Shown here: positions 10,401-61,456 of the stretch, in pieces | Layout: each line of letters opens with the position of its first letter | Position numbering within the stretch: the stretch's first letter is position 1 | Assembly: GCF_029784135.1 (NCBI RefSeq) | Contig: NC_073746.1 | Location: forward strand, 150,115,056 to 150,179,055 | Direction: 5' to 3' | Origin: Toxorhynchites rutilus septentrionalis | Lineage: Eukaryota > Arthropoda > Insecta > Diptera > Culicidae | DNA: 64,000 nt | Notes under the pieces: generated by a model | Seen by the model: only the letters and a program-made list of their open reading frames with translations | Told to the model about the DNA's origin: nothing | Databases searched by the model: none | Translations under genes and position numbers: made by a program

Positions 10401-10869
10401 TGGCAAAATGTAAGCCACCAAAAAGTACGCTACGTAAGCCGATTCTGTTGCTTCCGTTTGAAAAATGAGGAAAAATTATATTTTATATTTCTATATTTTG
10501 ATTTTTTTATATTTTGTATGAAACGACTCAAGTAACATTTTGAGAGTAGAAAATTTAAAAGTTAGCAGTTTTAAGTTGTTGTTATTAATTTTATCCAATA
10601 AATTCATTATAAACTTGATTGTTTCTATAAATTAAATTGAACTCTCTAAACGCTCTATAATTTGTTCTTCGACATCTAACTCGTATGTTTTCTAATTCCG
10701 CTGTAATATAATTTGAACAATTCCTGATGAGCTTTCAACTAGAATCTTCAAAATCCTCCATTGTATGTATAATAACCATTTAACTTTCACCTTAACTTTG
10801 AATTATTGCTTTTTTTCTTGAAAAAAGTCATATTTGAAATATCAAAAAGTCCAAAAAGTTAAATTTTTA

Positions 10870-12079: not shown

Positions 12080-13357
12080 GGCTGTCAAAAAAGTCCTGCG
12101 GTATTATTTTTGAATTTTCATTTGTTCATAAAATTAGTTACAATCATCTGTTTTAAGTCAAATATGCGCCGTTTTGTTCGATGACTTGTTCCCAACGAGA
12201 TGCCAACTTCATAATACCTCTGTTATAGAAGCTCGCTTCCTTATTGGCAAAAAACTTGGATTGCCAATTTTCACAGACCTCTTTTGTGGCTATCTTCTGA
12301 CTACCTAGCTCGTTCGCCATGGACAAAAACAGGTGGTAGTCACTTGGTGCAAGGTCCGGACTATACGGCGGATGCAAAAGAACCTCCCATCCGAGCTCCC
12401 GGAGCTTCTGGCGCGTCACCAAAGAAGTGTGTGGCCTGGCGTTGTCCTGATGGAAGACAATGCGGCCTCTGTTTATCAAAGATGGCCTCTTCTTCATGAG
12501 TGCTACCTTCAAGCGGTCCAGTTGTTGGCAGTACAGGTCCGAATTGAGCGTTTGGCCATAGGGAAGCAGCTCATAATAGATTTTTCCTTGCCTTGACAAT
12601 CCCACCAAACACACAGCAGAACCTTCCTGGCCGTTAATGAGGGCTTGGCCACCGTCTGAGCCGCTTCAGCGGGCTTCGACCACGACCGTTTGCGCTTCAC
12701 GTTGTCGTAAGTGACCCACTTTTCATCGCTAGTCACCATCCGCTTCAGAAACGGGTCGATTTTGTTGCGATTCAGCAGCGATTCACATGCGTCGATACGG
12801 TCAAAGATGTTTTTTTGCGTCAACATGTGTGGCACCCATACATGAGCTTCTTTGTGAATCCAAGCTTCTTCAAATGGTTAATAACGGTTTGATGACTTAT
12901 CCCCAGCTCTTGGCCGAGGCTACGGCTGCTACTATGCCGGTCTTTCTCGGCTAATTTAGCGATTTTGTCGCAATTTTCGACGACAGGCCTTCCGAAGCGT
13001 GGCGCATCTTGGACGACCTCTACACCAGAACGAAAACGTTGAAACCATCGTTGTGCGGTGGAAAAATTTTATTGGCAGCTTGAGATGCATTTCTGCCTTT
13101 GTCATAGTAGTACTGTAAAATATGTCGGATTTTCTCTTTATTTTGCTCCATATTTGCGACACTATAACTCACGAACGACTTAACCAAACAAAACACTGTC
13201 AAGGACTATATTATAGCGCGGAAAGGAAAGGTATTTTTATATATTATAAAAATACCTTTCCAACAAGCTATAGTATGACTCGATACAATGAATACAACTA
13301 GAACTACGCGCTTACAACGACACCTCGCGGAAATACCGCAGGACTTTTTTGACAGCC
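12080..13357 (-). mobile_element. Full-length mariner element (1,278 bp)
   Basis: Perfect inverted ends start GGCTGTCAAAAAAGTCCTGC and extend to about 26 bp. They are flanked by TA at 12078-12079 and 13358-13359. The size equals that of intact mariners. The transposase lies on the minus strand and is broken, so the copy is probably immobile on its own but could still be a substrate. Confidence 0.93.
12153..13151 (-). pseudogene. Mariner transposase (DD34D), frameshifted
   Basis: The start is MEQNKEKIRHILQYYYDKG at 13151, the usual mariner N-terminus. The helix-turn-helix region loses about 15 residues in a small deletion after AANKI, which shifts the frame, and a further 1-nt shift lies near 12835. 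The first catalytic Asp is in TSDEKW and the second in HQDNARPHTS. The third is in LAPSDYHLF and is intact. A frame change near 12590-12615 separates the D1 block from the D2/D3 block. The C-terminus ends EQNGAYLT as in relatives. At least three independent lesions rule out a functional enzyme, but all three catalytic Asp codons survive. Confidence 0.85.
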
Positions 13358-20162: not shown

Positions 20163-21060
20163 TACAGGTCGGACTCGATTATACATGATTCGATTATATA
20201 CAATTTTAGACTCGGTTACATACAATTAAAAAAAAAATTTTTTTATTTCAAATATGACTTATTCCACATGAAAATTAAATGTGTCAACCTTAAAGTGAAA
20301 GTTGATTGGCTTCTATATGTACAGTGAAATAAAAATCGTGATTTTGGTAAATTCACCAGGAATTGTTTAAAATTATATTGCAGTGAAATTAAAAAAAGAT
20401 AGAAGTTGGGTGAACGAAGTAAGGTGGCTAGAGAGCTTTTATTTGGTTGATAGAAACATTCGAGTTTATTATGCATTTTTTGAATAAAATTAAGAACCTT
20501 AACGTAACCTTCTTCTTGGATGGCACTAACGTTCCCAGTGGAACTTTTGCCTTCTCAACATAGGTGTTCCTTGCGTCATTTTTGTTAGTGGTACTTAGTT
20601 GAGATTTCTATGCCGGATAACACGCCTGGAGTGGCAAGCTCTAGAATACGCGTGACCACAGTGCAAGTCGGAAGAAATTTCTTTGGCCAGAACGGGGATC
20701 GAACCCGAACCCCCGGTATGATTATGTGGGACACTAATCACTTGGCCACGGGAGTACCTTAACGTGACCTACGTAACCTTAAAAACCACTTTGGTGTTTT
20801 TCACTTATAAAATGTTACTTAAATCCACAAATTTTGGAAGTTTTATTATCATCATTATTATTTGTAGCATGTAACAACAAAAGAATGGAAATGCCTTCTG
20901 CAAGATCATATTTGAACAAACGAAAGTGAATTATTCAGAAAGTATTTTATGACTTTAAGGGGATGAGTCTCCTTTTATATTCAAAAAACGAAATATATAT
21001 GTATTAAAAAAAACAAATAAAAACAATCATATTCGGCACCAGTTCAACAAATGAGTCATG
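20163..21060. repeat. GGTCGGACTCGATTATA repeat family, copy A (right end lost)
   Basis: Starts TACAGGTCGGACTCGATTAT and shares a run of matching segments in the same order with 31287-32779 (for example AAAGTGAAAGTTGATTGG versus AAAGTGAAATTTAAGTGG, and CTTTTATATTCAAAAAACGA). The family's right terminus, seen at 32757-32779, is missing. It is interrupted by a SINE at 20511-20755. Confidence 0.6.
20511..20755 (-). mobile_element. tRNA-derived SINE (type 1) with 15-bp TSD
   Basis: On the minus strand it begins with a tRNA-like head: A box TGGCCAAGTGATTAG and a near-perfect B box GGTTCGATCCC. A conserved body follows and it ends in (AAG)n. The 15-bp duplication ACCTTAACGTAACCT (20496-20510, and 20756-20770 with one mismatch) shows target-primed insertion. 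It resembles the Feilai-type tRNA SINEs known from Aedes, but the name is inference. Confidence 0.88.
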
Positions 21061-24029: not shown

Positions 24030-25325
24030 AAGGGTGTGTCACATCAAATTGCATCACGGAAAAAAACGCTGTAGAAATTCGCCCAGTAGACCGATCCTTT
24101 TGAAAATTTTAGACAGTAAAATAAAAACTATTAAACAACTTTTGGCATTTTCTTTTTATTCATACTTCGAGCCCAAGCCCGTATGCTCGCACCTTCCTCT
24201 TTACCCCGTCCATAAGGTTCTGTACAACGTCAGGTTGTAGTTTTTTTTGAACAGAAATCCATTTACTCTTGAAGTCCGCCTCCGATTTCACAACTTTTGG
24301 GTTCTTTCGGAGGGCCTGCTTCATAATCGCCCAATATTTCTCTATTGGGCGAAGCTCCGGCGCGTTGGGGTTCATTTCCTTTGGCACGAAGGTGACCCTG
24401 TTGGCTTCGTACCACTCCAACACGTCCTTTGAATAGTGGCACGAAGCGAGATCCGGCTAGAAGATGGTCGAGCCCTCGTGCTGCTTCAATAGTGGTAGTA
24501 AGCGCTTCTGTAGGCACTCCTTAAGGTAAACCTGCCCGTTTATCGTGCCGGTCATCACGAAGGGGGCGCTCCGCTTTCCGCAAGAGCAGATCGCTTGCCA
24601 CACCAAGTACTTTTTGGCAAACTTGGATAGTTTCTGCTTGCGAATCTCCTCCGGAACGCTGAATTTGTCCTCTGCGGAGAAGAACAACAGGCCCGGCAGC
24701 TGACGAAAGTCCGCTTTGACGTAGGTTTCGTCGTCCATTACCAGGCAATGCGGCTTCGTCAGCATTTCGGTGTACAGCTTCCGGGCTCGCGTCTTCCCCA
24801 CCATGTTTTGCCTTTCGTCGCGGTTAGGAGCCTTCTGAACCTTGTATGTACGCAGGCCCTCCCGCTGCTTGGTCCGCTGGACGAATGAACTTGACAAATT
24901 CAGCTTATTGGCGACATCCCGGACCGAACTTCTCGGATCACGTCTAAACTGCTTAACTACGCGCTTGTGATCTTTTTCACTGACGGAGCATCCATTTTTG
25001 CCATTCTTCACCTTCCGGTCGATGGCTAGGTTCTCGAAGTATCGTTTTAGTACTGTGCTGACCGTGGATTGGACGATTCCCAGCATCTTACCGATGTCCC
25101 GATGTGACAACTCTGGATTCTCGAAATGAGTGCACAGGATTAATTCACGACGCTCTTTTTCGTTCGACGACATTTTTCCAAATTTACGAAAAATTGACAG
25201 TGAAGCATGGCCAACGTGATCTATACACTCTTATCTGATTATAAGCGAAATCTGAAGATATAATTCCTAAAAATTAAATTTCTACAGCGTTTTTTCCGTG
25301 ATGCAATTTGATGTGACACACCCTT
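24030..25325 (-). mobile_element. Near-intact Tc1/mariner-type element (DD36E by count)
   Basis: Inverted ends begin AAGGGTGTGTCACATCAAAT and stay matched for about 45 bp. TA flanks at 24028-24029 and 25326-25327. Its 1,296-bp length is full size for the superfamily. A deleted relative lies at 40513-41448. Confidence 0.93.
24160..25173 (-). pseudogene. Tc1-type transposase with a single nonsense codon
   Basis: The frame opens at 25173 (MSSNEKERRELI) and would run 338 codons to 24160, except for one TAG at 24457-24459. That codon sits where relatives have Trp, directly before PDLASCHYSK, which holds the second catalytic Asp. Two N-terminal helix-turn-helix motifs are visible (LSHRDIGKMLGIVQSTV and SSVRDVANKLNLSSSFV). 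The first catalytic Asp is in VMDDETYVK and the Glu in LRPIEKYW. I count 36 residues between the second Asp and the Glu, as in the DD36E (Incomer-type) group, though that assignment is inference. No frameshift was seen. This is the best-preserved transposase in the window and may have decayed recently. Confidence 0.88.
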
Positions 25326-30157: not shown

Positions 30158-30166
30158 AATCCAATG

Positions 30167-31288
30167 ACTTGTGTGAAGTTAGCGGCCAAAATCCAGCGGC
30201 TAAAATCGCATACAAGTCATATGTTGGATGCAACATGCGATAATTTTGTTTTTCGTTATTAATTATTTTAATAATTATAAATTGAACATTCATCGAATAA
30301 ATAACGTTAGATATATACTCATTCGAAAGAGAAATATGTTATCTATCTTCTAGCATGATTTAACCCATCATCAAAGTATCAGAAGGAAGTTATACATCAA
30401 AACGTGCACATGAGTCAATAATTTGAGGAGTACCAATTTCGGAAAATCAAAAAAAGTTGTTCGAAACACCCAAAAACACATTCTTGAAACAATGTTCATT
30501 CGATAGAGAAATATTTTATCTATCTTCCGGCCCCTACTTTCATTGATCGGAAAAGGGTCTAAGGAAAGTTATAGGCCAAGTTGTATGGGGGAAATTAATT
30601 AATTCAAACAACATTGAAAAAAGTTATTAGAAAGCACCCAATACACATTTTCGAGATAATATTCATTCGATAGAGAACATTTTTATCTATCTTTAGCCAT
30701 ATTTTCATTGATCGGAAAAGGGTTCGAGAAAAGTTATAGACCAAAACGTGTACGAGCTATATGGGAGAAAAAATAATTTGAGAAAATGCGTACAAGTTGT
30801 ATGGATGAAGGGAATTATTTTAAAGAAAATGTAAAAAAGTTATTTGAAGGCCCAAATTCACATTTTTGAGATAGTACTCATTCGATAGAGAATATTTTTA
30901 TATATCTTCAACCATATTTTCATTGATCAGAAAAGGGTCTGAGAAATGTTATATGCCAAAATGTGTACAAGTTGTATGGGGGAAATTAATTAAATTAAAG
31001 AACATTGAAAAAAAGTTATTAGAAAGGATCCAATACACATGTTTGAGATAATACTCATTCGATAGAGAATATTTTTATCTATCTTCAACCATATTTTCAT
31101 TGATCGGAAAAGGGTCTGAGAAACGTTATATGCCAAAATGTGTACAAGTTGCATGGGGGAAATTAATTAATTCAAACAACATTGAAAAAAGTTACTAGAA
31201 AAGACCCAATACACATTTTCGAGATAATATTCATTCGATAGAGAACATTTTTATTCATCTTTAGCCACATTTTCATTGATCGGAAAAG
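30167..31288 (+). repeat. Left inverted arm with satellite units
   Basis: After a ~330-bp unique outer part, units of about 190 bp repeat. Key words are TTTTCATTGATCGGAAAAGG, GTGTACAAGTTGTATGGGGG and CATTCGATAGAGAA. About five units are present. The array breaks off at GGAAAAGG where another repeat is inserted. Confidence 0.85.
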
Positions 31289-32779
31289 GTTGGACTCGAT
31301 TATATACTCGACCGAAAAATTAGAGGAACAGAGGGCGATGTCGGAAATTTTAAGTGATTTTTGACATACCTACTGTAACTTCGTGAAAAATCAACGCATA
31401 TCGATGGGGTGCGCATCATTTTAAAGTTATAACTTCCAGTTATTAGAACATTTTACGTATATATTTTTATCTTGAGATGTGTAGGTGTAGTTGGCAACAA
31501 TATCAAGAATAAATGAAAAATCGATTTTTGTTTGTTTTTTTTTTTGAGAATATTCTGGACTAAAACGTTTTTTTTGCTAACCAACTCAATAGTAAATCCA
31601 ATTAACCTTATCAACCAGCTTTCATTCGATTCCAAGAACGTTCCTGTAGGACCTTCCCACACAGAGGTATTTCTGTTTGAGTCTTTGTCTTTGGTGATGA
31701 ATAATTCAATAAAAAACATCGCATCGTAAATCTAACGGCAGTTTTGAAAACTCCAATAAATTCAGCATGAGAATAATTTGTTACTTTGACGAAAAAAAAA
31801 TTATTTGAATTTTTTGTATCGATTTCATAGAAGTGTCAAACCAGGATTTTTATAGTGCTTTACAAAAACCACTGTTATTCTGCAAATATAGTAGTAAGTT
31901 CTAATGTTTGCAGACAATTTTTGTAGCCTAGTGTATTACCTAAACATTTGTGAACGTTTCATATCGATACGTTCAACCGTTTATTCTAGACGATTTTTCA
32001 TAGTTTGGATTAAATTAGAGGAGCATTTAATTGCAAACCGTATCAGAAGTACAAAATTCGACTCCAAAAATGAAAATATGACTTAGTTCAAGCAAAAATG
32101 TAACCTTTCAACGTTAAAGTGAAATTTAAGTGGTTATTGTATGTACAGTGGGGTGAAAATTGTGATTTTTGAAGATTTTGCCTGAATTTTCACAAGGAAT
32201 TGTTTGTATCGATATTTCAACAAAATTAAGGATGATAGAAGTTTAGTATCAAAGAACAAATTGTAGAACTGTTAGAAGCTTTAATTCAATTGATAGAAAC
32301 AATCAAGTTTAAAATAAATTTTTAGGATAACATAAATAATAACACATTAAAAATTACTAACTTTTAAGTTTTTCACTTCCAAAATTTAAATGTTCCAGTA
32401 CTATATCCTATATTATAATTTCTCATTTTTCAAATGGAAGCAACAGAATCGTCTTCCGTACGTAGCGTACTTTTTAATGTAGAATTTGAAGCAACAAAGT
32501 CCGAAACAGAAAAAAAGTTCTATAACTCTCTCATTGTTGAAATTTGAACATATGCGTAGATGGATTTTTTCATCCAATATGATTGTTTATCATCCCCTGA
32601 GAGATTCCGGATAAATTCATTATTTCCATGTGAGAAAGGTGTTTTCTGACTTCAAAGGGATGAATCAAAAATAAAAATCTTCTTTTATATTCAAGAAACG
32701 AAACATATAAGCATAAAAAACGATTTTTTTGTGATATACAGTGAAAAGAAATCCGAGACTGTATCGAGTCCACCCTGTA
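31287..32779. repeat. GGTCGGACTCGATTATA repeat family, copy B
   Basis: Starts GGTTGGACTCGATTATATAC and ends GTATCGAGTCCACCCTGTA, an imperfect inverted pair. The order of internal segments follows copy A at 20163. No coding frame with family features. It sits at the inner edge of the left satellite arm. Confidence 0.6.
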
Positions 32780-33189
32780 TTTTTATTCACTTCAGCCCTG
32801 TACATTTATCCACTTCACTCCAATGACATTTAGTATTGGAAAATTTCCAATATTTTTGGTTTCGTTATTGATTTCGGTGCAGTTGAAAATCATTACCATC
32901 ATAACAACATCCAAATCTATTAGCAATACGTTGGATGTGATTTCGATGCGCGTCTCAATTTTTGCGAGGATCCATATCTGATGAGACCATGCATAAAATA
33001 TGATAGCTGAATAGAAGACATTTTACCGATGAAAAATGATTTAAAATTAATTAATAATCTCACTATATTAAACATACAATACGTTACGAACCGTAAGTGT
33101 TGTTGTTCAGATGATCAGTACTATTTTTGGTAGATATGTTTTGGTGTAATTATATTTTATCTGCACAGTACTCGGGCGATATTCTTGGA

Positions 33190-34800
33190 TGTTTTTTTTA
33201 AATTGGAAATTAACCCTGATTTTTAAAGTACCTCAAAATTCAAACCATTTTTCCTTCATATTTGGTATGATTAAATTTGAACTTTTAAATATTTTGTTTT
33301 GTTTAATGCTCAAGACTTTTGTAGAATTTTTCGAACGGTCTGGCTTGATAAGGAGGTAAAAAGTGACCAATCCAAATCACCAGCTCTATGAAAAATATTG
33401 TATAGGGTTCCAAATAATAAATTTTTGATTTTTTTTTGAATTCTTATAGGTTGGGTGTTGGAACATTTTGATAATTGATTAGGGTATATTTGACGATGTA
33501 TTTTTTGTTGTTGCCGATATAATAACTATTATACTGTTGACAGCTGGGCACGTGGCAGTATTTAAAAATTGGCAATTGTCATTGAATAAAAAATAGCTGT
33601 TTTTTTCAACTAAAAATTCAAAATTTTAAATTTAAAAAATCATATAAATTGAATAATTGAGATAACAAAAAACGACTACGTAAAAATTTAGATAATTCAT
33701 TTTTACATGCTAGAAAAAAAATTCAGTCAAATTGTGAAATAAATGTACCACCAGCTGGAAAAAACATGATTTCAAAAAAAAAAAACGCGCTTAAATGATG
33801 CGTACAAAAATGCTACTTCACTTGGCGTAACCTCATAGTCTTTGCAGTAACTTTTCAACGAGATGCAAAATCGAAAAATCCTTTCCACATAACATTTTTT
33901 AAGGCTTCCGAAAATGCAAAAATTTCCTCTTTTATTTTTAAAAATCACAAATTTAGAATCACAAGAAATTGTACCGTGCAATGTTCTGAAATTCTGAAAA
34001 AAAACCCAAACTAAAAACACATTCATTCAAATAAAAATTATGTTTTTGTTTTCATGGCACTTACGTTCTCAGTGGATATTTTGGCTTCTCAACGTAGGTG
34101 TTACTTACAGAATAATTATCAAAAAACACATACGAACATATTTTAATATAAATTAGAATAGTACTGGATCTCAAAATTCTAAAAAATCAGAATTTGAAAA
34201 CCGAAAAAAAAAAATTTTTGTGCTGCGCCAAATTTTGAAAACACTGAGAAAAAATCATACATGTCTAGAAAAGGCGTGAGAACACATTTGAGATCAAATT
34301 AGAGGAGTTCGGATTTTTTTTGCAAAATTTCCAAATTTTTTCTTGGTATTCAAATTGTTGATGAATTTTTTTTCGATACATCATAGTAAATAGTAATTAG
34401 TAAAAACAGTAAATAGTAAAATGAATTTTCAGTATTTTCTTTCTTATTTTTATCTCTAAGTTATTGAGAATGGCGTGAAAAATGAGAAGTGAATTTTTCA
34501 TCATGAATTATATAGTGAACATCAGAGATTCAAAATATAGTCATTTTTTCATTTAGTACCCTATACAATATTTACCATAGAGCTCGTGATTTGGTTTGGG
34601 AGCACTTTTAACTTCCTTAACCAGCCAGCCTCTATCAACTATTCTAAGAACACACGTATTACGATTATGTAATATAATGTAGGAGGAAAATAATGGTTAT
34701 GGAATTATTAAAAATTTGGTGCAAATTTTCATTTCTTGTTTTCCGAAAAAGTGTGTATTTTTTTAACAAACTCATATTAGTACAACTCGTTTCTAGACTA
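33190..34800. repeat. Foldback-type repeat with inverted arms
   Basis: Segments 33363-33417 and 34548-34605 are inverted copies, sharing CTCTATG-AAATATTGTATAGGGT, with flanking similarity beyond. The interior is AT-rich and non-coding and includes a SINE fragment at 34052-34110. Outer ends were not fixed. Confidence 0.5.
34052..34110 (-). mobile_element. tRNA SINE (type 1) 3' fragment
   Basis: CATGGCACTTACGTTCTCAG and GGCTTCTCAACGTAGGTGTT match the 3' part of the SINE at 20511-20755. The tRNA-like head is absent, which is usual for 5'-truncated retroposed copies. Confidence 0.7.
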
Positions 34801-35117
34801 TTTTTGTGTACAGTCAGAGGTTTCCGAACTATAATTTTTTAATAAAGATCTTGCTTGCGTCGTTTTAATAAATTACACGTGATAAAAAAAATCATTCCTT
34901 TTGTGGAAAAGCTCAGTTTCATAGTCCAAATTTATGTGTAATACTCTATCACAATCAATAAAACTGATAAAAACTTCGCATATTTTCAAAATATTCTGGC
35001 AGAAAATTCCCTACACAAAAACATGTTGTAAAAACTGAATTTTTAGAACACATACCGAAAATTAAATTCACTAGGAAGTGTGTCGTTTTACTTAGCGATA
35101 TTTTCTTTTCAGCTAAA

Positions 35118-36060
35118 ATGGTTAAGTCGAGGAAGCAGACTGTTCTTCAAGAAAATCGAGACAGAGATCATTTCGAATCGAAATACGGTGGTCTATGGAT
35201 GAATCATTTGAATACGCATGATCCCGAAGCGTACACCGTATTGGGGGTGAAATTTACAGAATCCAATCACTTGAAGATTCTGACCCTGATCAGAAAATTT
35301 CAAAAGTCTTCTGTTATTAATGTGGGTGTGGAAAATTATGAGAAACATCATCTTTCTAAATTGCCTTCATTTGATGAAATACACCTAATTGACAAGGCTT
35401 CATTATCCCTCTCAACTGTTAGAGGTTCATCATTATTTATTGATAGTGATGATTCAATTTATAATGACGCACATTTTACGAATCCAAATAAAACATTGCT
35501 TTAACCAAAAATAATAAATTTGTTAGTACAGGAGCAAACTGCGTCATTAATTGTAACTTTGAAAGTTGTGAAACAACTAGTACATTGTCACAACAGGAAG
35601 TTTTCAGTTTTGAGGAAGGTAGCAGCACTGATATACAAGATGAAGTGTTAAGTTTAGATGAGGTTCAGAACAGTATATTGAATGCGCAGGACATTGATGC
35701 AAGTAATGTGATAAATAAATCAATTGTACAAACAACTATTGGTAAGGTAGACGATATGAACTCTACTAATTTACCGCAAAGGGACACTAGATTTAACGAA
35801 TTTAAAATGAAAGATTTCTGGGATTCGGGAAAAGCTCTCGTTTGGAAACGAGAGCAACTCCAATGTTTGTTGGATGGGGAAAACAAATTAATTAGGTTCA
35901 AGACTGGATATAAAGAGCGAATTAAATTCGACACTTTTCAAGAGCAAGAATCATATACAACATTCCATGATTTAATCCGACATCCTAATGATACATGTCA
36001 TGTTTATTTCAAAGGTGTAAAAGATTACGTTCCATTGAAAAAAAACCAAACGAACGATTA
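35118..36060 (+). pseudogene. N-terminal region of the Foldback-element transposase
   Basis: The first frame opens at ATG 35118 just after an acceptor-like TTTTCTTTTCAG. It runs to about 35504, then a frameshift leads into a second frame to 36060. No standard domain was recognised. Visible features are a basic start (MVKSRKQTVLQENRDRDHFE), an acidic middle (about 35620-35700) and a Cys pair NCVINCNFESC near 35540. The segment DFWDSGKALVWKREQLQ near 35810 may open the conserved transposase body. It joins the DDE region downstream by position and strand. Confidence 0.55.
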
Positions 36061-37735
36061 AAGTTTTTGCACGTTGCATGTTTCTTCCATGTAAACGTTT
36101 TATGTTCATCACTACATTTGATCCATTGAAAAATGATGCCATAACTTTCAAAATTCTGCATGACATGGATGATATTCATCATCCAACTCCATTGGCTCCA
36201 CAAATTCGGGGAAAACATAGAATTAAATTACAACAAGAAATTTTGAAAACTACCACTCGTGATTTCATTTCAAACCAAATTGACACTCTTCATGATAATC
36301 AAACTTTGTTCGATTTGGATAGAAATCTTCGAGGATGATACAGCCAGAAAGATGGCTTCTGAGGCAAGATATAAGCTCCGAGAAGATAAGAATGTCTTCT
36401 CTGCTCTTGTAGAGTTGTTGAGCAAGCCTGAGACTTCAATTATGTTTTTGCAATACAAACCTATTAATATTCTTCTTATGACGAAAGCACAGCTTGATAT
36501 TTTCAATAACATTTCAGTAGAATCTGGTCTAATTGACTTTCATTGACTTCCACTGGTATTCAGTGGTATTCTATATCCGGTAAGAGTATGCTTCTGTATA
36601 GTTTAATCGCACGTGTTCAAATTTGTCCTCGTGATAAATTAAAACCATTTCCTATCGCCAATTTTTTTACTGAAAATCACTACACCTGGAATATTGAGAC
36701 TAATTTGGGTTTCATAAAACAATTTATAGTCAATAACACGAAAAAAAGTCTCCCTTCTATTTTTCGAACTGTCACAACAGATTTTTCACTAGCTGAGATA
36801 AATGCTCTTATGACATCTTTTAATGGAATGTCCATAATGCAGTATCTCAAAGCTTGTGAAGCGTGGGTTCTAGACAAAAACTTGAATCAAAAATTATATT
36901 TTGTTGTTATCAAGTTGTGTAGCTCTCATTTGACGAAAATGTTTTATAGGGATGTAGACAAATTCATACCTGAAAAATATCATCCGAATAACAATTTTTT
37001 GTAAAATTGTGTTTGCGTCTTTGTTCAATATAAGATACGCAGCCACGATTTACGATATTTTAAAATTATTTTTCACATATTTATTGACTAAAAAGACAAA
37101 TACCAAATTAGATTCATATGGATGTTTGTCAAAATATTTAAATTTATTAAAAGAAGATGTATCAATACCTAGTGATACAGAATCTTGCACTGTAAGTAAC
37201 GTTTTTGATACAGAAAATTGTGATGATTTCAAGACAATTTATCAGTCAAGTCCTTTTTATCAACGAGGATTGATTGATTTCAAATCTGTGGTGAATGAAG
37301 AAGTGGGTGATTTTGGGATAGCAGCATCAGAAACAAACTCAATTTATACATTTATCAACACATTTTTGAAAAAATATATTACATATTTACCTTTCTGGAC
37401 CCCTTTATTATCCAGAAACGCAGATCGTTGAATTGAAGCAAAGATTCAATCGATCAAATAATGGGACTATTCAAGAATATCACAAGGACATAAAATGTGA
37501 TATTAAAAATTGCACCTTTATTGGCAATCAAGATCGGGTGAGAATCGATGATTATATTTTACATATTCATGAAAATAATGTAAATACGATCGTCAAGAGA
37601 TTCAAATTGCGAGTACCAAATACGCGAAATACAAAAATGAAGAATTTTGAACGACCTGATGCAACACCTTTCTTGAATAAAACTTCCCGAAAACGAAAAC
37701 TGTCAAATTCTGAATCATTCGTTACTCCAGCCTGA
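36060..37735 (+). pseudogene. DDE transposase core with CxxH motif (MULE/Foldback type)
   Basis: The protein is readable across at least five frames. An N-terminal piece (MFLPCKRFMFITTFDPLKND, about 36078) is followed by a helical segment ending SVESGLIDFH at 36546. A 1-nt insertion falls exactly in the motif that should read D-S-T-G, the first catalytic Asp. Next come YSLIARVQICPRDKLKPFPI, then FRTVTTDFSLAEINALM with the second Asp (about 36780), then IKLCSSHLTKMFYRDV with the CxxH typical of MULE/hAT-related folds (about 36910). After a frame change, PFWTPLL and QIVELKQRFN give the likely catalytic Glu at 37430-37432. The D...D...CxxH...E order supports a Mutator-superfamily or KDZ-like enzyme. 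It is inactivated by frameshifts and stops. The residue assignments are inference from motif order. Confidence 0.65.
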
Positions 37736-37950
37736 TGAAGCAAACCCCTCTTAGTAAAATGCGTATTTCAGAATTGTACAGAGAAAAAGAAAAATTAAAG
37801 AAAGGCAAGAGTAGAAGAAAGCTTCCGTTTTGTGATAAAAAATTAGATTCATTGGAATGTATTTCTAAATGGTGGGGAAAATATAAAATTGATAACGGAA
37901 AGCAAAACCTTGTTGAAGAAGGCGTCCAAGCTGTGAAGCCTGACAATTAA
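37735..37950 (+). pseudogene. Basic linker region between transposase and protease
   Basis: A 71-codon frame is Lys/Arg-rich (YREKEKLKKGKSRRKLPF) and has ISKWWGKYK. It lies between the DDE core and the Ulp1-like part on the same strand. Probably one continuous polyprotein or a spliced gene originally; no domain recognised. Confidence 0.4.
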
Positions 37951-38164
37951 ATAATGAATTAAATTTGAATTCTGTTAGCAAGATTCGTCTTATTGTAGAA
38001 TAGATGAATCTGTCTCCGAAGAATTGTAGATTATTATACTGCTCCAAGAACCGAAAAATGTGATGGCATAAAATTAATCTACAGAGAATCTACCTTACAA
38101 TAGGGTGATCTCAAGACACTTTTCGAATGTGGATGGAACAGTTATTTAACGAATTTTCTTGTAG

Positions 38165-38648
38165 ATGTTTTACATAGAGAACATAATATGTTCCATTGCT
38201 CGTAATGCACATAGAATATTCTGCGACCAAACTCCAATGTTATTTGGGCTTTCTCCAGTCGATCTTAATATTCTAGAGAATATTTGTTTGAATATAAATA
38301 ATGCTGAAATGTCAGTTTTACCTATGTTATTCAAGGCTCATTTCACTTTAGCCCTTATCAATTTAAAGGAAAAAAACATTTATCTTCATAGATTCTAAAC
38401 ATGTGTATAGGTCGGATCAAATGTTCAACATTATCAAAACTAATCTAAACAAATACACCAGGAATCGTGAAACTTCAAATTTTTTAAATATTTTAAATAA
38501 ATTCACTCCCATTGATATGAAATGCAATTTTCAACCAGATGGAGTAAACTGTGGAGTTCATGTTCTTTATAATATTGAGATGTATCTCACCAATCAAAAT
38601 CTTTTAAGTACTTCATTCGATCCAAAATATGAGCGGATGAGAATTTAG
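38165..38648 (+). pseudogene. Ulp1/SENP-type cysteine protease domain
   Basis: Two overlapping frames join at about 38385. The catalytic set of the C48 (Ulp1) fold can be placed: His in FKAHFTLALIN (CAT 38339-38341), Asp in IDSKHVYRSD (GAT 38391-38393), Gln and Cys in FQPDGVNCGVHVLYN (CAA 38533-38535, TGT 38551-38553). Such proteases cleave SUMO-like conjugates or polyproteins. Several large DNA transposon families (some MULEs, KDZ, Ginger-type) carry them. One frameshift separates His from Asp, so it is not functional. It lies 0.4 kb downstream of the transposase core in the same element. Confidence 0.75.
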
Positions 38649-38684
38649 AAAAACATTATTTTAAATTCCAATAATGTTGAAAAG

Positions 38685-38876
38685 ATGTGTCCGGGCTGCG
38701 GAGTAACCGAGAATGACACATCGTTTTCGGAACAGTGAATTTGGCAAAGTGTAATAAATGCAACAGGGTGTGGCATGTGAATTGCATCAGGGATAAAATA
38801 TTACTTAAAAATTCCACACATTCTTCTTGCGTAATGTGTGTTGGAATCAAGTACGATTTCAAGAAGTAAATAAAAA
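38685..38876 (+). pseudogene. PHD-type zinc finger at transposase C-terminus
   Basis: Starts CPGCGVTEND in one frame and continues, after a 1-nt shift, as KCNKCNRVWHVNCI and SSCVMC before a TAA at about 38874. The Cys/His order C-x2-C, C-x2-C, x4-H-x2-C, C-x2-C is a C4HC3 PHD-like finger, a histone-tail reader fold found at the ends of some insect DNA transposases. AATAAA overlaps the stop region (about 38876). The finger closes the coding series that began at 35118. Confidence 0.6.
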
Positions 38877-38984
38877 TGACCAACAATTTTATATTCAAAT
38901 GAAATATTTTTTTCTACCATACAAGAAGTGGGACTCAACAATTTTTATATAACTTTTTTATAAGCATCAGTTGGATTCAACTCC

Positions 38985-39115
38985 GCCAGCCTTTTAATAA
39001 AAATTATACGCTGACGGTTCCAAGTCCGTGAGGGAGGAGGAAATTCAACAATACTTCATAAAAGAATTTAATGCTTTGGAATCAAGGAAGTTCAAAATGG
39101 AGAAAAGTAAATAAA
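38985..39115 (+). other. Possible further exon of the Foldback element
   Basis: A frame reading LYADGSKSVREEEIQQYFIK and then EFNALESRKFKMEKSK ends at TAA near 39112. An acceptor-like TGAATATTTGCAG follows at about 39170. It is uniform in texture with the preceding genes but matches no domain. Confidence 0.25.
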
Positions 39116-39464
39116 TAAAAGTATTGTTTTAATTTACCAACCTGTCAACACTCATTATTGAATATTTGCAGGAACTATTGTAGCTTCTCTGAAAGCTAAC
39201 TTTTTTATGATGTTGAAACAAGAAGGTAAATTTCACACTTAAAATTAGAGATTATTATATTATTATTATTTTAGATGGAACGTATATTCCGTAACTCAAT
39301 TATAACCCAATTATATATACTATCCGGTTGCATAATGAGTATTGGAAAAAAAACCTTCCATTAAAACGAAATAAATCATAACACAACAACTAAACATCAT
39401 TCATTACTGTCATGTCAGAAATATTATTAAAATGAATGAAATAAAAGAGTTACAGTATCAAGAG

Positions 39465-39990
39465 AGTATTCTAGTCTAGAAATTTGAAAAATATAAAAAA
39501 TATCTTTTATTTTTGAAGTTTAGCTAGTTTTTTTGCAAATCCCGTTATTTATCGAGTGATAGCCATTTTATTGATGAGGTATATAATCTAGTAGGGCCTT
39601 GACTCCAAACTTGAAGCACGTTTTATTTTTTTAAACAGACGTACACGATATCTCAAGTTCTACAGAATCGATCAATTGCAAATGAATGTGAATGTGTGAT
39701 GTAAATAATTATTTATACATCCCTCTATCGCATAAACCAAAGAAAAAATTTTTTTTTAATTTTATTATTTTCGAAAAAAAATTGTCGTAAAAACGTTCAA
39801 AAATGCAAATTATTTTATCAAATGGCCACCATTTGGTCAAAACTGATTTTTTTTATTTGTCCGAGGTTCATACGATAGCGGTATCTGTACTGATTCATAA
39901 TTATTTCGATTTTTATGTTTAAGATAAGCAGAAAGACTGAAATCGCGTTCGCCATGGCATAACTTATTTTTAAACCCCCTCACAACACCA
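39465..39990. repeat. Dispersed repeat family C, copy 2
   Basis: Matches 26410-26815 in order: ATTCTAGTCTAGA, ATTTATCGAGTGATAGCC, GTACACGATATCTCAAGTTC. Non-coding. Confidence 0.55.
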
Positions 39991-40117
39991 GCTTGTAACT
40001 ACTTTAATTTCGAATTTCCCGTTTAGTTCTCGTTGTATTGTCAGAAGATAAATAAAGAATTAATGAAATAATTGATGGTGAAAATATTCTTTGTTTTCTT
40101 TGTTCAGAAACTCGAGT

Positions 40118-40165
40118 CCTAGAATCCTAGATCCTTAATCCTAGAATCCTAGAATCCTTAATTTA
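40118..40165. repeat. Short tandem repeat (CCTAGAAT)n-like
   Basis: CCTAGAATCCTAGATCC then TTAATCCTAGAATCCTAG repeats an 8-9-bp unit about five times, imperfectly. Confidence 0.8.
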
Positions 40166-40512
40166 TTATCAGTACTCAACAATAAACTAGTTGTATATTA
40201 TAATGAAAGAATAATAATTTTTCAACAGTAGTAAATATTACTGCAAAGGGCTTAAAGATGAACTAGTTAACTATTGTTTTCCTTTGCCACTTCGTTGAAA
40301 CAGTCCCAAAACGTGTCGTGAGCTTCGCATGTTACGTATGATTGTTTCTCTTTCCGTTTAACAGGTGTTGAAGACGGCAATGAGCTGTTACTCTTAAAAG
40401 ATTCGTAGCAAAATATTTCTGTATTATCCATTTAGATTTTTTGTCAGGCTGTCTCCGTTTGGAGATCTTCCATAGAACATCGTATCTAAAAATGTTGCAA
40501 TATGGTTATTTA

Positions 40513-41448
40513 GACCTTCTGTGTTACATCAAATTGCATCACGGAAAAAACGCTGTAGAAATTCTCCCAGTAGACCGATCCTTTTGAAAATTTTAGACAA
40601 TAAAATAAAAACTATTAAACAACTTTTGGCATTTTCTTTTTATTCATACTTCGAGCCCAAGCCCGTATGCTCGCACCTTCCTCTCTACCCCGTCCATAAG
40701 GTTCTGTACAACGTCAGGTTGTAGTTTTTTTTGAACAGAAATCCATTTTCTCTTGAAGTCCGCCTCCGATTTGACAACTTTTGGGTTCTTCCGGAGGGCC
40801 TGCTTCATAATCCCCCAATATTTCTCTATTGGGCGAAGCTCCGGCGCGTTGGGGAATTCATTTCTAGGCAATGCGGCTTCGTCAGCATTTCGGTGTACAG
40901 CTTCCGGGCTCGCGTCTTCCCCACCATATTTTGCCTTTCGTCGCGGTTAGGAGCCTTCTGAACCTTAAATGTACGCAGGCCCTCCCGCTGCTTGGTCCGC
41001 TGGACGAATGAACTAGACAAATTCAGCTTATTGGCGACATCCCGGACCGAACTTCTCGGATCACGTCTAAACTGCTTAACTACGCGCTTGTGATCTTCTT
41101 CACTGACGGAGCATCCATTTTTGCCGTTCTTCACCTTCCGGTCGATGGTTAGGTTCTCGAAGTATCGTTTTAGTACTCTGCTGACCGTGGATTGGACGAT
41201 TCCCAGCATCTTACCGATGTCCCGATGTGACAACTCCGGATTCTCGAAATGAGTGCGCTGGATTAAATCACGACGCTCTTTTTCGTTCGACGACATTTTT
41301 CCAAATTTACGAAAAATTGACAGTGAAGCATGGCCAACGTGATCTATACACTCTTATCTGATTATAAGCGAAAGCTGAAGATATAATTCCTAAAAATTAA
41401 ATTTCTACAGCGTTTTTTCCGTGATGCAATTTGATGTGACACACCCTT
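40513..41448 (-). mobile_element. Deleted copy of the DD36E Tc1-type element
   Basis: The right end is identical in type to 24030-25325 (AAGGGTGTGTCACATC inward from 41448, then TA at 41449-41450). The left end is altered in its outer ~12 bp but matches from ACATCAAATTGCATCACGG on. At about 936 bp it lacks roughly 360 bp of the full element. It lies inside the giant Foldback element. Confidence 0.88.
40644..41296 (-). pseudogene. Tc1-type transposase lacking the catalytic middle
   Basis: N-terminal frame 41296-40855 (MSSNEKERRDLIQRTHFENP) keeps both helix-turn-helix motifs and ends MLTKPHCL. The deletion joins this to a second frame with PNAPELRPIEKYWGIMKQAL, so the first two catalytic Asp residues are missing and only the Glu region remains. 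The remaining sequence is very close to the 24-kb copy. A truncated DNA-binding protein could in principle still bind the ends; this is inference. Confidence 0.85.
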
Positions 41449-41974
41449 TAATTAGTGAGCGTGTCGCTTTAATGTGTAGTGAAGTAAGTCTCCCTCTCTC
41501 GGCTTAGCTTCCTTGAAATCGGTTATAATGTTTTTTTCAATCTTGAATGAAAATAATTAATTGATATTCTTCGTTCACTCAAAATTCCAAATCCAAAATG
41601 AAAACACACACATATCCAAACAAATTGCATTATTATGTTATTTTAAAAAACATTGAGATTCTTTGTAGGAAACTTGGTGCACTATTAAATATTATATCTA
41701 CTCTAAGCGAAAAAAAAAATATACGTTCATGATTTTTATGTGTCTGTGTTTATGATATGTTCTGTAAAATTCAAATCTGTAAAATTTTATTACACTGATT
41801 TTATTTACGCGACTGATGCGTGTGCGCAAAAAAAAAGGCATAATAACAGAATTCCCCTTCACCGGCGCGCGCTCGTCAGATCACGTATTTTCAAGAAAAT
41901 CGCAAATTTCGAGAGAATCGCGTAGATAAAATCACGGAAAAAAATCGCGTAAAAAGAATACAGTTTATACTTAT

Positions 41975-42056
41975 TTATAGAGCCATTCCATGCCAAACTG
42001 AAAAGTGGGTCTTAGATTTTAGTGAAAAGTGGTAGTTTTGTTCTTTTTCGCAAAAC
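41975..42056. repeat. AT-rich repeat family A terminus fragment
   Basis: GCCATTCCATGCCAAACTGA and GTGAAAAGTGGTAGTTTTGT match the family A end seen at 45877. It abuts the inner edge of the right satellite arm. Confidence 0.6.
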
Positions 42057-44017
42057 AATAGCATTTCTCAGACCCTTTTCCGATCAATGAAAATATGGTT
42101 GAAGATAGATAAAAATATTCTCTATCGAATGAGTACTATCTCAAAAATGTGTAATTGGGCCTTCAAATAACTTTTTTACATTTTCTTTAAAATAATTCCC
42201 TTCACCCATACAACTTGTACGCATTTTCTCAAATTATTTTTTCTCCCATATGACTTGTACACGTTTTGGCCTACAACTATTCTCGAACCCTTTTCCGATC
42301 AATGAAAATGTGGCTAAAGATTGATAAAAATGTTCTCTATCGAATGAGTAGTATCTCAAACATGTGTATTGGATCCTTTCTAATAACTTTTTTTCAATGT
42401 TCTTTAAATTAATTATTTTCCCCATACAACTTGTACACATTTTGACATATAACATTTCTCAGACCCTTTTCCGATCAATGAAAATATGGTTGAAGATAGA
42501 TAAAAATATTTTCTATCGAATGAGTACTATCTCAAACATGTGTAATTGAGCCTTCAAATAACTTTTTTACATTTTCTTTAAAATAATTCCCTTCGCCCAT
42601 ACAACTTGTACGCATTTTCTCAAATTATTTTTTCTCCCATATGACTTGTACACGTTTTGGTCTATAACTTTTCTCGAACCCTTTTCCGATCAATGAAAAT
42701 GTGGCTAAAGATTGATAAAAATGTTCTCTATCGAATGAGTATTATCTCAAACATGTGTATTGGATCCTTTCTAATAACTTTTTTTCAATGTTCTTTAAAT
42801 TAATTAATTTCCCCCATACAACTTGTACACATTTTGGCATATAACATTTCTCAGACCCTTTTCTGATCAATGAAAATATGGTTGGAGATATATAAAAATA
42901 TTCTCTATCGAATGAGTACTATCTCAAAAATGTGTAATTGGGCCTTCAAATAACTTTTTTACATTTTCTTCAAAATAATTCCCTTCACCCATACAACTTG
43001 TACGCATTTTCTCAAATTATTTTTTCTCCCATATGACTTGTACACGTTTTGGCCTATAACTTTTCTCGAACCCTTTTCCGATCAATGAAAATGTGGCTAA
43101 AGATTGATAAAAATGTTCTCTATCGAATGAGTACTATCTCAAACATGTGTATTGGATCCTTTCTAATAACTTTTTTTCAATGTTCTTTAAATTAATTATT
43201 TTCCCCATACAACTTGTACACATTTTGGCATATAACATTTCTCAGACCCTTTTCCGATCAATGAAAATATGGTTGAAGATAGATAAAAATATTTTCTATC
43301 GAATGAGTACTATCTCAAACATGTGTGATTGAGCCTTCAAATAACTTTTTTACATTTTCTTTAAAATAATTCCCTTCGCCCATACAACTTGTACGCATTT
43401 TCTCAAATTATTTTTTCTCCCATATGACTTGTACACGTTTTGGTCTATAACTTTTCTCGAACCCTTTTCCGATCAATGAAAATGTGGCTAAAGATAGATA
43501 AAAATGTTCTCTATCGAATGAATATTATCTCGAAAATGTGTATTGGGTGCTTTCTAATAACTTTTTTCAATGTTGTTTGAATTAATTAATTTCCCCCATA
43601 CAACTTGGCCTATAACTTTCCTTAGACCCTTTTCCGATCAATGAAAGTAGGGGCCGGAAGATAGATAAAATATTTCTCTATCGAATGAACATTGTTTCAA
43701 GAATGTGTTTTTGGGTGTTTCGAACAACTTTTTTTGATTTTCCGAAATTGGTACTCCTCAAATTATTGACTCATGTGCACGTTTTGATGTATAACTTCCT
43801 TCTGATACTTTGATGATGGGTTAAATCACGCTAGAAGATAGATAACATATTTCTCTTTCGAATGAGTATATATCTAACGTTATTTATTCGATGAATGTTC
43901 AATTTATAATTATTGAAATAATTAATAACGAAAAACAAAATTATCGCATGTTGCATCCAACATATGACTTGTATGCGATTTTAGCCGCTGGATTTTGGCC
44001 GCTAACTTCACACAAGT
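42057..44017 (-). repeat. Right inverted arm with satellite units, dimeric order
   Basis: About ten ~190-bp units are inverted relative to the left arm. Alternate units are more alike: ATGTGTATTGGATCCTTTC recurs at about 42362, 42752 and 43145, a 391-393-bp period, so the array has a dimeric higher-order unit. The outer ~420 bp are nearly identical to the complement of the left arm. Confidence 0.88.
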
Positions 44018-44026
44018 AATCCAATG

Positions 44027-55093: not shown

Positions 55094-55815
55094 CGAGGGT
55101 CACTATTTATATTTCGGGAATAGGAACAAAAAAAATAGTTAAGCTGCGAATATATTTTTATTGTTTTTCAAAATACTCGCCACGATGATCGATACACTTT
55201 GCGCTTAAACCAATTTTCAAAGCATTTATTCCAATCGACACGAGCCTTTTTTTTAGCGATTGTCAAATTATGTGGGATCCAACGTGAACATAATTTTCGC
55301 ACAACTAAGTGTTCATGTAAAATCGCATATATGCTGGTGGAACTAATGCTTAGGGATGCCTCAATCTCACAATAGGTTACATGACGATCTTGCTTAATTA
55401 TTTCGTGCACAGCATCGATGTTTTCTGGCACTACAGTCGATTTTGGACGACCTTCACGAAACTCGTCGGACAGCGAACTGCGACCACGATTGAATTCACT
55501 ATACCAGCGATACACAGTGGTTTTTGATGGAGCTTCATCGCCAAAAGTCAAATTAAGTTGATTGACGCACTCTTGTTGTGATAATCCACGTCGAAAGTCG
55601 TAAAAAATCATCGCACGAAAATGTTCACGATTCAGTTCAATTTTTTTGCCGAGACCAAACTTTCAACTAAATATAAAATGAACAAATAGCGTCCGTATGA
55701 CAAAATGTTCTGAGTACGTATATCGTCAAAAATGTCAAACTTTACGATGGATCCGTCAGATGGACTCACATGACATCAGTGTTGCCAATTCCCGAAATAT
55801 AAATAGTGACCCTCG
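55094..55815 (-). mobile_element. Deleted mori-type mariner (722 bp)
   Basis: Perfect inverted ends CGAGGGTCACTATTTATATT, continuing to about 28 bp. TA at 55092-55093 and 55816-55817. About 60 % of the usual length. Inserted inside the palindrome element. Confidence 0.92.
55168..55611 (-). pseudogene. mori-type mariner transposase without catalytic core
   Basis: The frame reads MIFYDFRRGLSQQECVNQLN and continues through the paired helix-turn-helix region (DEAPSKTTVYRWYSEFNRG, then VTYCEIEASLSISSTSIYAI) to KKKARVDW. There it jumps straight to KCFENWFKR, the C-terminal motif, so the whole catalytic DDD region is deleted. The native start probably lies about 11 codons upstream (KIELNREHFRA can be read), where a mutated start codon is suspected. 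The DNA-binding half is open for 147 codons. It resembles the Bmmar/mori group of insect mariners. Confidence 0.88.
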
Positions 55816-60203: not shown

Positions 60204-61456
60204 ACGGGTGTTAAATAAAAAATGAGAATTTTTTCAATCACATAAAAAAAAAATTTTTTTTCATCGATTTCAGTATTTTTTATTAATAACATAATGTATT
60301 TTCTTCAAAAAAATGTCAGTGAATGTTTGAGTAAGGGCCGTGGTCTGCTGTTCGACGCAACTTTGTCGCGATGCTCTCACAAGAACGTTGTACGGCACTT
60401 ACGTCCATTTTCCGGATACAATTCCGGATTCTTGTAGTCAGTTGCTTCGTGTCCTTGGCCCTCCAATTGTTTTTATACACTAGGGCACTGAGTGAGCCAA
60501 AGAAATCCTCTATTGGGCGGCACTGGGGCAAGTTTGTTGGGTTACGTTCTTTCGGCACGAACGGTATCTTTTTCTCCTCAAGATACGCCAGCGTCTTCTT
60601 GGCGTAATGGGAAGACGCCTTGTCCGGCCAGAAGACGTACTTCCCATCCGCGTGATGCTCGTTCAGGAACGGTAGCAGAATTTTATCGAGGCACTCTTCT
60701 CGATAGATTTGTTGGTTGATTGCCAGACCGCTCGGCTTAAACCAAGGCTTTGAAATGCCCCGGTCGGAAATGGCGATGTACAACATAACATTTTTCTCAA
60801 ACTTGTGTTTGAACTTGTATTCCTCTTCAGGCGGTGTGGATGACTTGTCGCTGGAGTAGTAATTATCATTTCCTGGAATATGCGTTTTGGACAGCGGAAA
60901 ATTTCGTCGTCCAGAACGAAAGACGTCCCGCGGTATTTTTTGGTCATCCACCGACACTGTGATTTAACCGTCTCAATCTGCTCCTCTGTGTACTCCGGCG
61001 ACCTCGTCTTCTTCCTGCAGACGATTCTTTCCATCTTGAGGGTCCGATGGATCAATACGTGGGAGCAGCCATATCAAAAAGCTTCTTTAACGATGTCTTC
61101 CTCTGCTTCGTAATTATCGTCACCGGACGACCACTTCCGACCTTCCGCTCTACGTTCAGGGAACCCAGGATACGATATACCGTACTGAAAGGTATATTTT
61201 CGTCCTTAAAATGTGCCACAGTGAACTTTTTTCCTTGCTGGAAATGCGTTTCGTAGAACCGTACAATGCGTTCGCGGAGTACGTGCTGTTTCGACGCCAT
61301 CTTTGCTTTGACTAAATTCAAACTAGCACAACCAAACACGCCTACTGTTTCTAGGGAGCCTAAAGAGCAATTTTCTTGGAGAAAGAAAATTTTACGCTCT
61401 TTATTTGAGTTACTGAAAGGTATTGAAAAAATTCTCATTTTTTATTTAACACCCGT
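60204..61456 (-). mobile_element. DD37E Tc1-type transposon (1,253 bp)
   Basis: Ends ACGGGTGTTAAATAAAAAAT and its complement are matched for about 34 bp, with TA at 60202-60203 and 61457-61458. Full length for the group. The spacing of the catalytic residues matches the ITmD37E group described from mosquitoes; that name is from established knowledge. Confidence 0.92.
60316..61300 (-). pseudogene. DD37E transposase, two frameshifts
   Basis: The start is MASKQHVLRERIVRFYETHF at 61300. The helix-turn-helix (KFTVAHFKDENIPFSTVYRI) and GRP linker (VGSGRPVTI) are intact. A 1-nt shift near 61070 follows, then KSQCRWMTKKYRGTSFVLDD with the first catalytic Asp. A second shift comes right after it. The last frame holds FWPDKASSHYAKKT (second Asp) and PQCRPIEDFFG (Glu), with 37 residues between them by my count. 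It ends HGPYSNIH at 60316. All catalytic codons survive and only two small indels break it, so the element is fairly young. Confidence 0.88.

Follow-up and report, generated by a model that had tools for sequence, protein, structure and literature searches.

A 64,000-nucleotide stretch of the genome of the mosquito Toxorhynchites rutilus septentrionalis (NCBI RefSeq assembly GCF_029784135.1, contig NC_073746.1, positions 150,115,056 to 150,179,055 of the forward strand; hereafter the window, with coordinates counted from its first base) contains a 13,851 bp foldback element at 30167-44017 that encloses the remains of a gene with DDE transposase, Ulp1 protease and PHD-like parts. The element lies between two exact copies of a 9-bp sequence, AATCCAATG, at 30158-30166 and 44018-44026, and this sequence occurs exactly twice in the window, both times abutting an element end. 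The left end opens with the 19-bp sequence ACTTGTGTGAAGTTAGCGG (30167-30185, + strand), whose complement closes the right end (43999-44017). A preliminary description of this stretch had claimed an exact 9-bp duplication around inverted ends and inverted arms of at least 1.1 kb, and both claims are borne out: the left arm (30167-31289, + strand) measures 1.12 kb and the longer right arm (42058-44017, - strand) 1.96 kb. Aligned over 1,164 columns (30167-31289 against 42857-44017), the arms are 91.5% identical. Identity per 100 columns is 96–100% over the outer 600 bp, 93–97% to ~900 bp, and 75–85% beyond. The window sequence contains no N, and thus no assembly gap interrupts the element.

Both arms are built of satellite DNA. 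The left arm consists of ~150 bp of non-repeated end sequence followed by satellite units at steps of 177, 167, 215, 177 and 176 bp, and the right arm of four ~391-bp satellite dimers plus the end. Tandem Repeats Finder reports a 177-bp unit in 2.9 copies at 87% on the left, and a 391-bp period in 4.0 copies at 96% on the right. With the units anchored on the motif CATTCGATAGAGAA, the spacing in each arm is 177 bp, 167 bp, and then 215 and 176/177 bp. The satellite is therefore a ~391-bp dimer of alternating 215-bp and 176–177-bp units that follows the 177- and 167-bp steps; the satellite construction of the arms proposed earlier holds, but a single ~190-bp unit does not. Non-coding stretches of 3–4 kb separate the arms from the gene, and an inverted-repeat scan of the interior (31290-42057) found no pair around the gene that resembles transposon ends.

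The gene motifs lie on the + strand at ~35.12–38.87 kb and are read as 13 frame pieces in the window copy. The DDE transposase part (35118-37732, + strand; frame pieces p1-p7) is broken. The second Asp (36780-36782, motif TDFS), the CxxH motif (36918-36929, CSSH) and the Glu (37475-37477, NNGTIxEY) are present as previously described, but the first Asp (36546-36548) has been lost, the window reading LTSTG where relatives read LDATG, and the frame is broken many times. A linker (37729-37947, + strand), which in the diverged copy L034 shares one frame with the Glu motif and the protease, leads to the Ulp1/Peptidase_C48 part (38059-38645, + strand; broken frame). The proposal of a Ulp1-type protease is confirmed by a match to Pfam PF02902 (E=6.2e-07, 29.9 bits, cut-off 20.7; the query consisted of typed frame pieces with X at the breaks) and by the presence in the window of all four expected residues: His 38339-38341, Asp 38391-38393, Gln 38532-38534 and Cys 38550-38552. 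The corresponding piece of L034 matches SENP3 (E=0.0018) and SENP2 (E~0.05), and gives no Ulp1 match in Pfam. The proposed C4HC3 finger, which is PHD-like, follows at 38685-38842 (+ strand) with all eight ligands present. Single-sequence structure prediction of 36540-37001 was uninformative (mean pLDDT, the predicted local distance difference test, 37.9).

Other copies join several of these pieces. The N-terminal pieces as far as the second Asp lie in one frame with one stop in the C2:21.6 copy, and the diverged copy L033, also with one stop, keeps the two-Asp part and the CxxH part after it in one frame. L034 provides an 819-bp frame from the Glu motif via the linker into Ulp1 which, after one stop, goes on for the last 369 bp of the stretch, and L033 a 630-bp frame that spans the later part of Ulp1 together with the finger.

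The genome assembly (902.6 Mb in 514 contigs, three of them large) was searched with the terminal 314 bp of the element and with the DDE region 35100-36100. Scoring 40 of 104 terminal candidates produced 44 matches, on which the counts of ends and pairs given here are based. Among the matches listed, 27 are strong (at least 94% identity), of which 26 start at base 1 or 3 and one at base 29. These include 24 that form 12 inverted pairs and three that are unpaired. The pairs span 2.2, 4.2, 13.9, 14.1, 15.3, 15.4, 17.5, 18.1, 21.2, 24.8, 28.2 and 28.6 kb. The 17 remaining matches are partial or weaker, and two of them at C2:128.61 Mb may represent one more decayed pair. Flanks were read for all 12 pairs, and seven pairs carry an exact abutting duplication of exactly 9 bp, each different: AATCCAATG in the window and AGCTGGTTG, CATGTACGA, TGAAAATAT, AAGATAATT, CTCGTTGGG and GTCGTAGTG elsewhere. 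An eighth pair, at C2:152.5, has the duplication ATAACTTCC offset by four extra bases on the right. When flanks are swapped between copies as a control, no more than 2–3 abutting bases are held in common, or at most six with offsets up to 4 and at most five with offsets up to 6. Thus, the element is one member of a real, mobile and well-anchored family, whose ends recur with 9-bp duplications in new flanks.

The pairs also differ in content. Ten of the 12 enclose the gene at least in part, and the two shortest are gene-less, each with an exact 9-bp duplication: L044 (4,167 bp) consists of satellite arms placed head to head with almost nothing between them, and L041 (2,247 bp) of short arms with little internal sequence. 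The number of anchor motifs per arm ranges from 2 to 22. Homogenisation between the two arms of one copy was considered and is not supported; only at C2:152.5 do the two ends (100% alike) clearly resemble each other more than they resemble other copies, and this does not hold for the C2:155.4, C3:44.9, C1:116.3 and window copies. In the copy at C2:21.58-21.60 Mb (L017/L018), which has no direct duplication, a left-flank 9-mer recurs reverse-complemented 5 bp from the right end. This is taken as chance because the flanks contain no longer inverted match. Viral contigs contain no exact matches to the element end, and three pattern matches there were not confirmed.

The DDE-region search identified 25 places. 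Fourteen correspond to ten window-type gene copies that were read (window included), eight of which were aligned, six correspond to five diverged copies that were read (L032, L033, L034, L037 and L038), and five lie outside the copies read. Three diverged copies enter the residue comparison, for a total of 11 aligned sequences, and four enter the analysis of substitution rates below. CxxH and Glu are kept in 11/11 copies, the second Asp in 10/11, the Ulp1 Asp in 11/11 and the Ulp1 His in 10/11. The first Asp, in LDATG or LDGTG, survives in all three diverged copies and in the C3:44.9 and C2:21.6 copies, and is lost in the other six of the eight window-type copies, the window among them. Gln and Cys of Ulp1 are present in all eight window-type copies and in d1_88; d2_112 has lost the Cys, and d1_96 ends before it. 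All finger ligands are found in the eight window-type copies. Two diverged copies extend to the finger and have them as well, one with an internal stop.

Every copy of the gene that was read is broken, ten of ten window-type and five of five diverged, and the autonomy once proposed for the element is not upheld. Frame shifts among the ten window-type copies fall between CxxH and Glu (10 copies), before the linker (9), after the CxxH part (7) and inside Ulp1 (7), and a stop within the opening part of Ulp1 was counted in all ten, its position agreeing among the eight that were aligned. The window gene, with these shared breaks and without its first catalytic Asp, is dead and is predicted to encode no working protein. 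The window and C1:116.3 copies have most frame breaks and the lost first Asp in common, and they occupy unrelated sites with their own exact duplications. Shared lesions with separate duplications suggest that these copies moved after the damage, with protein made elsewhere, and that dead copies would have been mobilised in trans.

A second subfamily carries the same gene together with a related satellite and the same end. In the C1:88.18 copy (L032, L035 and L036), the gene is 83% identical to the window gene over 3.06 kb, and beyond it lie satellite arrays with a 185-bp unit, one of 11.4 copies at 93% and another of 2.6. This satellite is ~65–80% identical to that of the window and closes with the identical 19-bp end ACTTGTGTGAAGTTAGCGG; no left end was recognised in the 5.9 kb retrieved ahead of the gene. 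The terminal region past the 19 bp is strongly diverged between the subfamilies, and the motif ATTCGATAGAGAA is retained in both unit consensuses. Conservation of the 19-bp end and of ATTCGATAGAGAA across subfamilies is what a transposase that recognises the end, and perhaps the repeated motif, would produce. Related satellite units also adjoin the gene in L033, L034 and L037, whose ends lie outside the stretches read. Of the three conditions named beforehand as refuting the element, none held as far as each was covered: the window has no gap, the ends recur as inverted pairs in new flanks, and the DDE gene at C1:88.18 has a related satellite terminus with the 19-bp end unchanged.

The ratio of nonsynonymous to synonymous substitution rates (dN/dS) was estimated by the Nei-Gojobori method between the window copy and the diverged copies d1_88, d2_112, d1_96 and d2_82, excluding codons with stops, gaps or three differences. 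Between subfamilies, in that order, the ratio is 0.26, 0.21, 0.25 and 0.24 for the DDE core (p3-p7), 0.20, 0.55, 0.20 and 0.22 for Ulp1, and 0.41, 1.07, 0.57 and 0.58 for the linker; the N-terminal part gives 0.51–0.63, and the finger 0.40, 0.41 and 0.26 in the three copies that reach it. The d2_112 values (linker 1.07, Ulp1 0.55) come from a copy that is in part other sequence, and were retained. With ratios near 0.2 for the DDE core and mostly also for Ulp1, the protease part was constrained about as strongly as the catalytic core, and the gene evolved under purifying selection between subfamilies. Comparisons of the DDE core with four copies of the window's own subfamily give 0.97, 1.08, 0.47 and 0.90, on few changes. 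Relaxed constraint within the window subfamily is accordingly clear for the DDE core, and not clear for Ulp1.

Several described systems share features with this family. Rehavkus (e.g., Rehavkus-1_TC of Tribolium) is a Repbase superfamily placed beside or inside the Mutator-like elements (MULEs), and corresponds to MULE-NOF in RepeatMasker. Foldback (FB) elements of Drosophila have a 9-bp duplication and satellite arms, and FB-NOF is reportedly called non-autonomous in the title of one paper. Compared by description only, the present family resembles FB-NOF in its long tandem-repeat inverted arms and its non-autonomous gene-bearing and gene-less forms; long arms of this kind together with gene-less members (L044 and L041) place it in the foldback structural class. 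Galileo and other P superfamily foldbacks carry a THAP domain, a P-type transposase and a shorter duplication, whereas Pfam reports no THAP domain here and the duplications are 9 bp long. KDZ/Zisupton elements have a KDZ-type transposase, which may or may not be related to the present one, and an 8-bp duplication; the duplications seen here are 9 bp. According to the available text of PMC6446971, Rehavkus elements occur in arthropods and annelids, duplicate 9 bp, have inverted ends of 26–400 bp and a PHD finger, and carry a minisatellite ahead of the 3’ end; satellite-carrying inverted ends are described in the available parts of both that paper and PMC10218199. Foldbacks have been proposed as Mutator members (PMC4079207, in part). 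The same source describes Tetris of Drosophila virilis, with foldback ends, ~220-bp internal tandem repeats and 8–10-bp duplications, as thought to be mobilised by another autonomous element, whereas here a gene is present, though broken. For the protease, the accessible portion of PMC2836005 reports Mutator transposons with Ulp1 from hydra, lancelet and plants, lists one Ginger1 element with Ulp1 and PHD (Table 1), aligns the Ulp1 and PHD domains of Ginger1 and Mutator transposases (Fig. 1e), and proposes a role for such proteases in transposition. The present gene similarly has Ulp1 near its C-terminus plus a PHD finger. Ginger1 differs in its Gypsy-type integrase and 4-bp CCGG/CCGT duplications, against 9 bp and no integrase family from Pfam here; the Ulp1-bearing Mutators come from other hosts, and that portion of the paper does not mention foldback satellite arms.

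Taken together, these features make it very probable that the window element is a non-autonomous, satellite-armed foldback DNA transposon of the Rehavkus/MULE-NOF type, a label drawn from described features and not from direct comparison with Rehavkus or NOF proteins. The preliminary description is upheld in its core: the element is a transposon of foldback type, makes 9-bp duplications, and has a gene with DDE, Ulp1 and PHD-like parts. The likeness to Rehavkus covers the 9-bp duplications, the satellite-bearing inverted ends (units of ~167–215 bp here) and the PHD-like finger; the arms differ in having up to 22 anchor motifs and a 215+177-bp dimer. The DDE part may be related to Rehavkus and Mutator transposases; its relatives show the D, D, CxxH and E motifs, and it matches no Pfam family. 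The combination had been thought undescribed, which does not survive comparison with the Rehavkus features in the accessible parts of PMC6446971 and PMC10218199 and with the alignment in PMC2836005. Because the literature already gives Rehavkus 9-bp duplications, satellite-bearing ends and a PHD finger, and includes an alignment of the Ulp1 and PHD domains of Mutator transposases, the family is most likely a fresh example of a described transposon type; its novelty is low and it opens no new class. No paper on a mosquito Rehavkus with Ulp1 was found in the open-access literature, which is not proof of absence.

A number of observations weigh against assignment to this type, or against parts of it. 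The DDE part matches no Pfam family, either as window pieces or in a relative, so its assignment rests on motifs; the PHD-family Pfam matches of the finger fall below curated cut-offs; and protein-database searches gave no hits among 5,517 and 1,212 candidates. The arms are 1–2 kb long in the window versus the 26–400 bp reported for Rehavkus in the available text of PMC6446971, and the Rehavkus descriptions available from that paper and PMC10218199 do not mention the Ulp1 part found here. The junction between CxxH and Glu is closed in every copy read, by a shift in all ten window-type copies and by a shift or an interruption in the diverged copies. The L034 junction holds ~600 bp of additional sequence (around 2460-3066 of that stretch) with the frame equal on both sides, which may be an insertion or an intron. 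Since no copy read is open there, we infer a single gene continuous across the junction, possibly with an intron. The four between-subfamily dN/dS comparisons are not independent, since most of one branch is common to them, and against four own-subfamily copies Ulp1 gives 0.63, 0.24, 0.40 and 0.72, on 4 to 9 changes. Four of the 12 pairs (C2:155.4, C2:21.6, C3:130.7 and C1:107.2) have no duplication, likely owing to recombination between copies. Finally, no transposition was observed.

Other origins can be weighed against the same evidence. The foldback element may be as described but with a transposase of another Mutator group with complex ends, such as Phantom/Muta, or of an unnamed sister of Rehavkus. 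In its favour, the Aedes Muta elements combine duplications of 8–9 bp with terminal tandem repeats, in Tm1 a Phantom-like transposase is found with foldback ends, and the failure of the DDE part to match any Pfam family or database protein provides no direct sequence placement that would oppose this. However, Muta repeats are 9–15 bp long versus ~180 bp here, and Table 1 of PMC6446971, in its available form, lists the PHD finger for Rehavkus, and for Phantom none, FLYWCH or SWIM. Pfam finds no FLYWCH or SWIM finger in the gene pieces searched, although some Phantom members have neither. Such an origin is improbable on balance.

A more drastic possibility is accidental nesting, in which a satellite foldback received an unrelated DDE-Ulp1-PHD transposon that had ends of its own. 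A published view holds that the arms of foldbacks and their transposases can evolve independently, the gene is set apart from the arms by its non-coding flanks, and the second-subfamily copy lacks a left end in the stretch fetched. That same copy, however, has a related satellite arm beside the gene, with an identical 19-bp end, and the interior scan found no second pair of ends around the gene; related satellite units adjoin the gene in L033, L034 and L037 as well, and the gene lies wholly or partly within 10 of the 12 inverted pairs. The scan and the second-subfamily copy render nesting very unlikely. Least credible is the idea that two independent satellite arrays, or an assembly misjoin, mimic a transposon. 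The four pairs without a duplication and the three unpaired strong matches speak for it, but 24 of 27 strong terminal matches fall in inverted pairs, seven of 12 pairs have exact, different, abutting 9-bp duplications, and the window is free of N. The pairing and the duplications leave this explanation with almost no probability.

For a Rehavkus/MULE-NOF-type foldback transposon, the following mechanism is proposed. The transposase would bind the 19-bp ends, and probably also the repeated ATTCGATAGAGAA motif in each satellite unit, excise the element and join it to a 9-bp staggered break. The Ulp1 part may act on the transpososome, or on chromatin and repair proteins, by stripping off SUMO or a related modifier, and the finger may dock on chromatin. 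The window copy would be mobilised by transposase from another copy, and unequal exchange could lengthen and shorten the satellite arms. More tentatively, and with the balance somewhat against it, the SUMO-type protease may be an obligate part of the transposase, the finger may steer the complex to marked chromatin, and the satellite arms may serve as arrays of additional binding sites. The obligate role is suggested by the Ulp1 dN/dS, which at 0.20–0.22 in three of the four non-independent comparisons equals that of the DDE core. If correct, transposition would require SUMO, or a related modifier, to be taken off. A single genome displays gene-bearing and gene-less copies, exact 9-bp duplications and two satellite-arm subfamilies side by side, and so offers a usable case for why some transposases carry SUMO/ubiquitin-type proteases and for how transposon ends turn into satellite DNA.

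The window contains further repeats. An internally deleted mariner-type element (40520-41443, - strand) with 44-bp inverted ends and helix-turn-helix (HTH) and transposase domains is nested within the foldback element. It is found at the same position in six of the nine other copies read, was not seen there in C1:107.2 and C2:155.4, and was not reached in C2:175.6; it has travelled with the foldback element. Closely related mariner/Tc1-type transposase fragments lie at 24460-25230 and 40829-41353 (both - strand), the second inside the foldback element, and the same family is also present at another position within the C1:107, C2:175 and C3:130 foldback copies. Other mariner-type transposase fragments occur at 12153-12662 and 55171-55662 (both - strand; Transposase_1 E=2.4e-09, Mos1-type HTH_48 E=1.2e-11). 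Scans of the window returned no Rfam matches and no tRNA, and an open frame of 215 amino acids at 60319-60963 (- strand) has no Pfam match at E<=0.01. Within the element, an inverted pair of 68 nt (79%) at 33367-33434 and 34532-34599, 1.1 kb apart, is perhaps a small nested transposon, and 32074-32475 is a dispersed repeat that resembles 10420-10835 and 20250-20496 at 67–70%.

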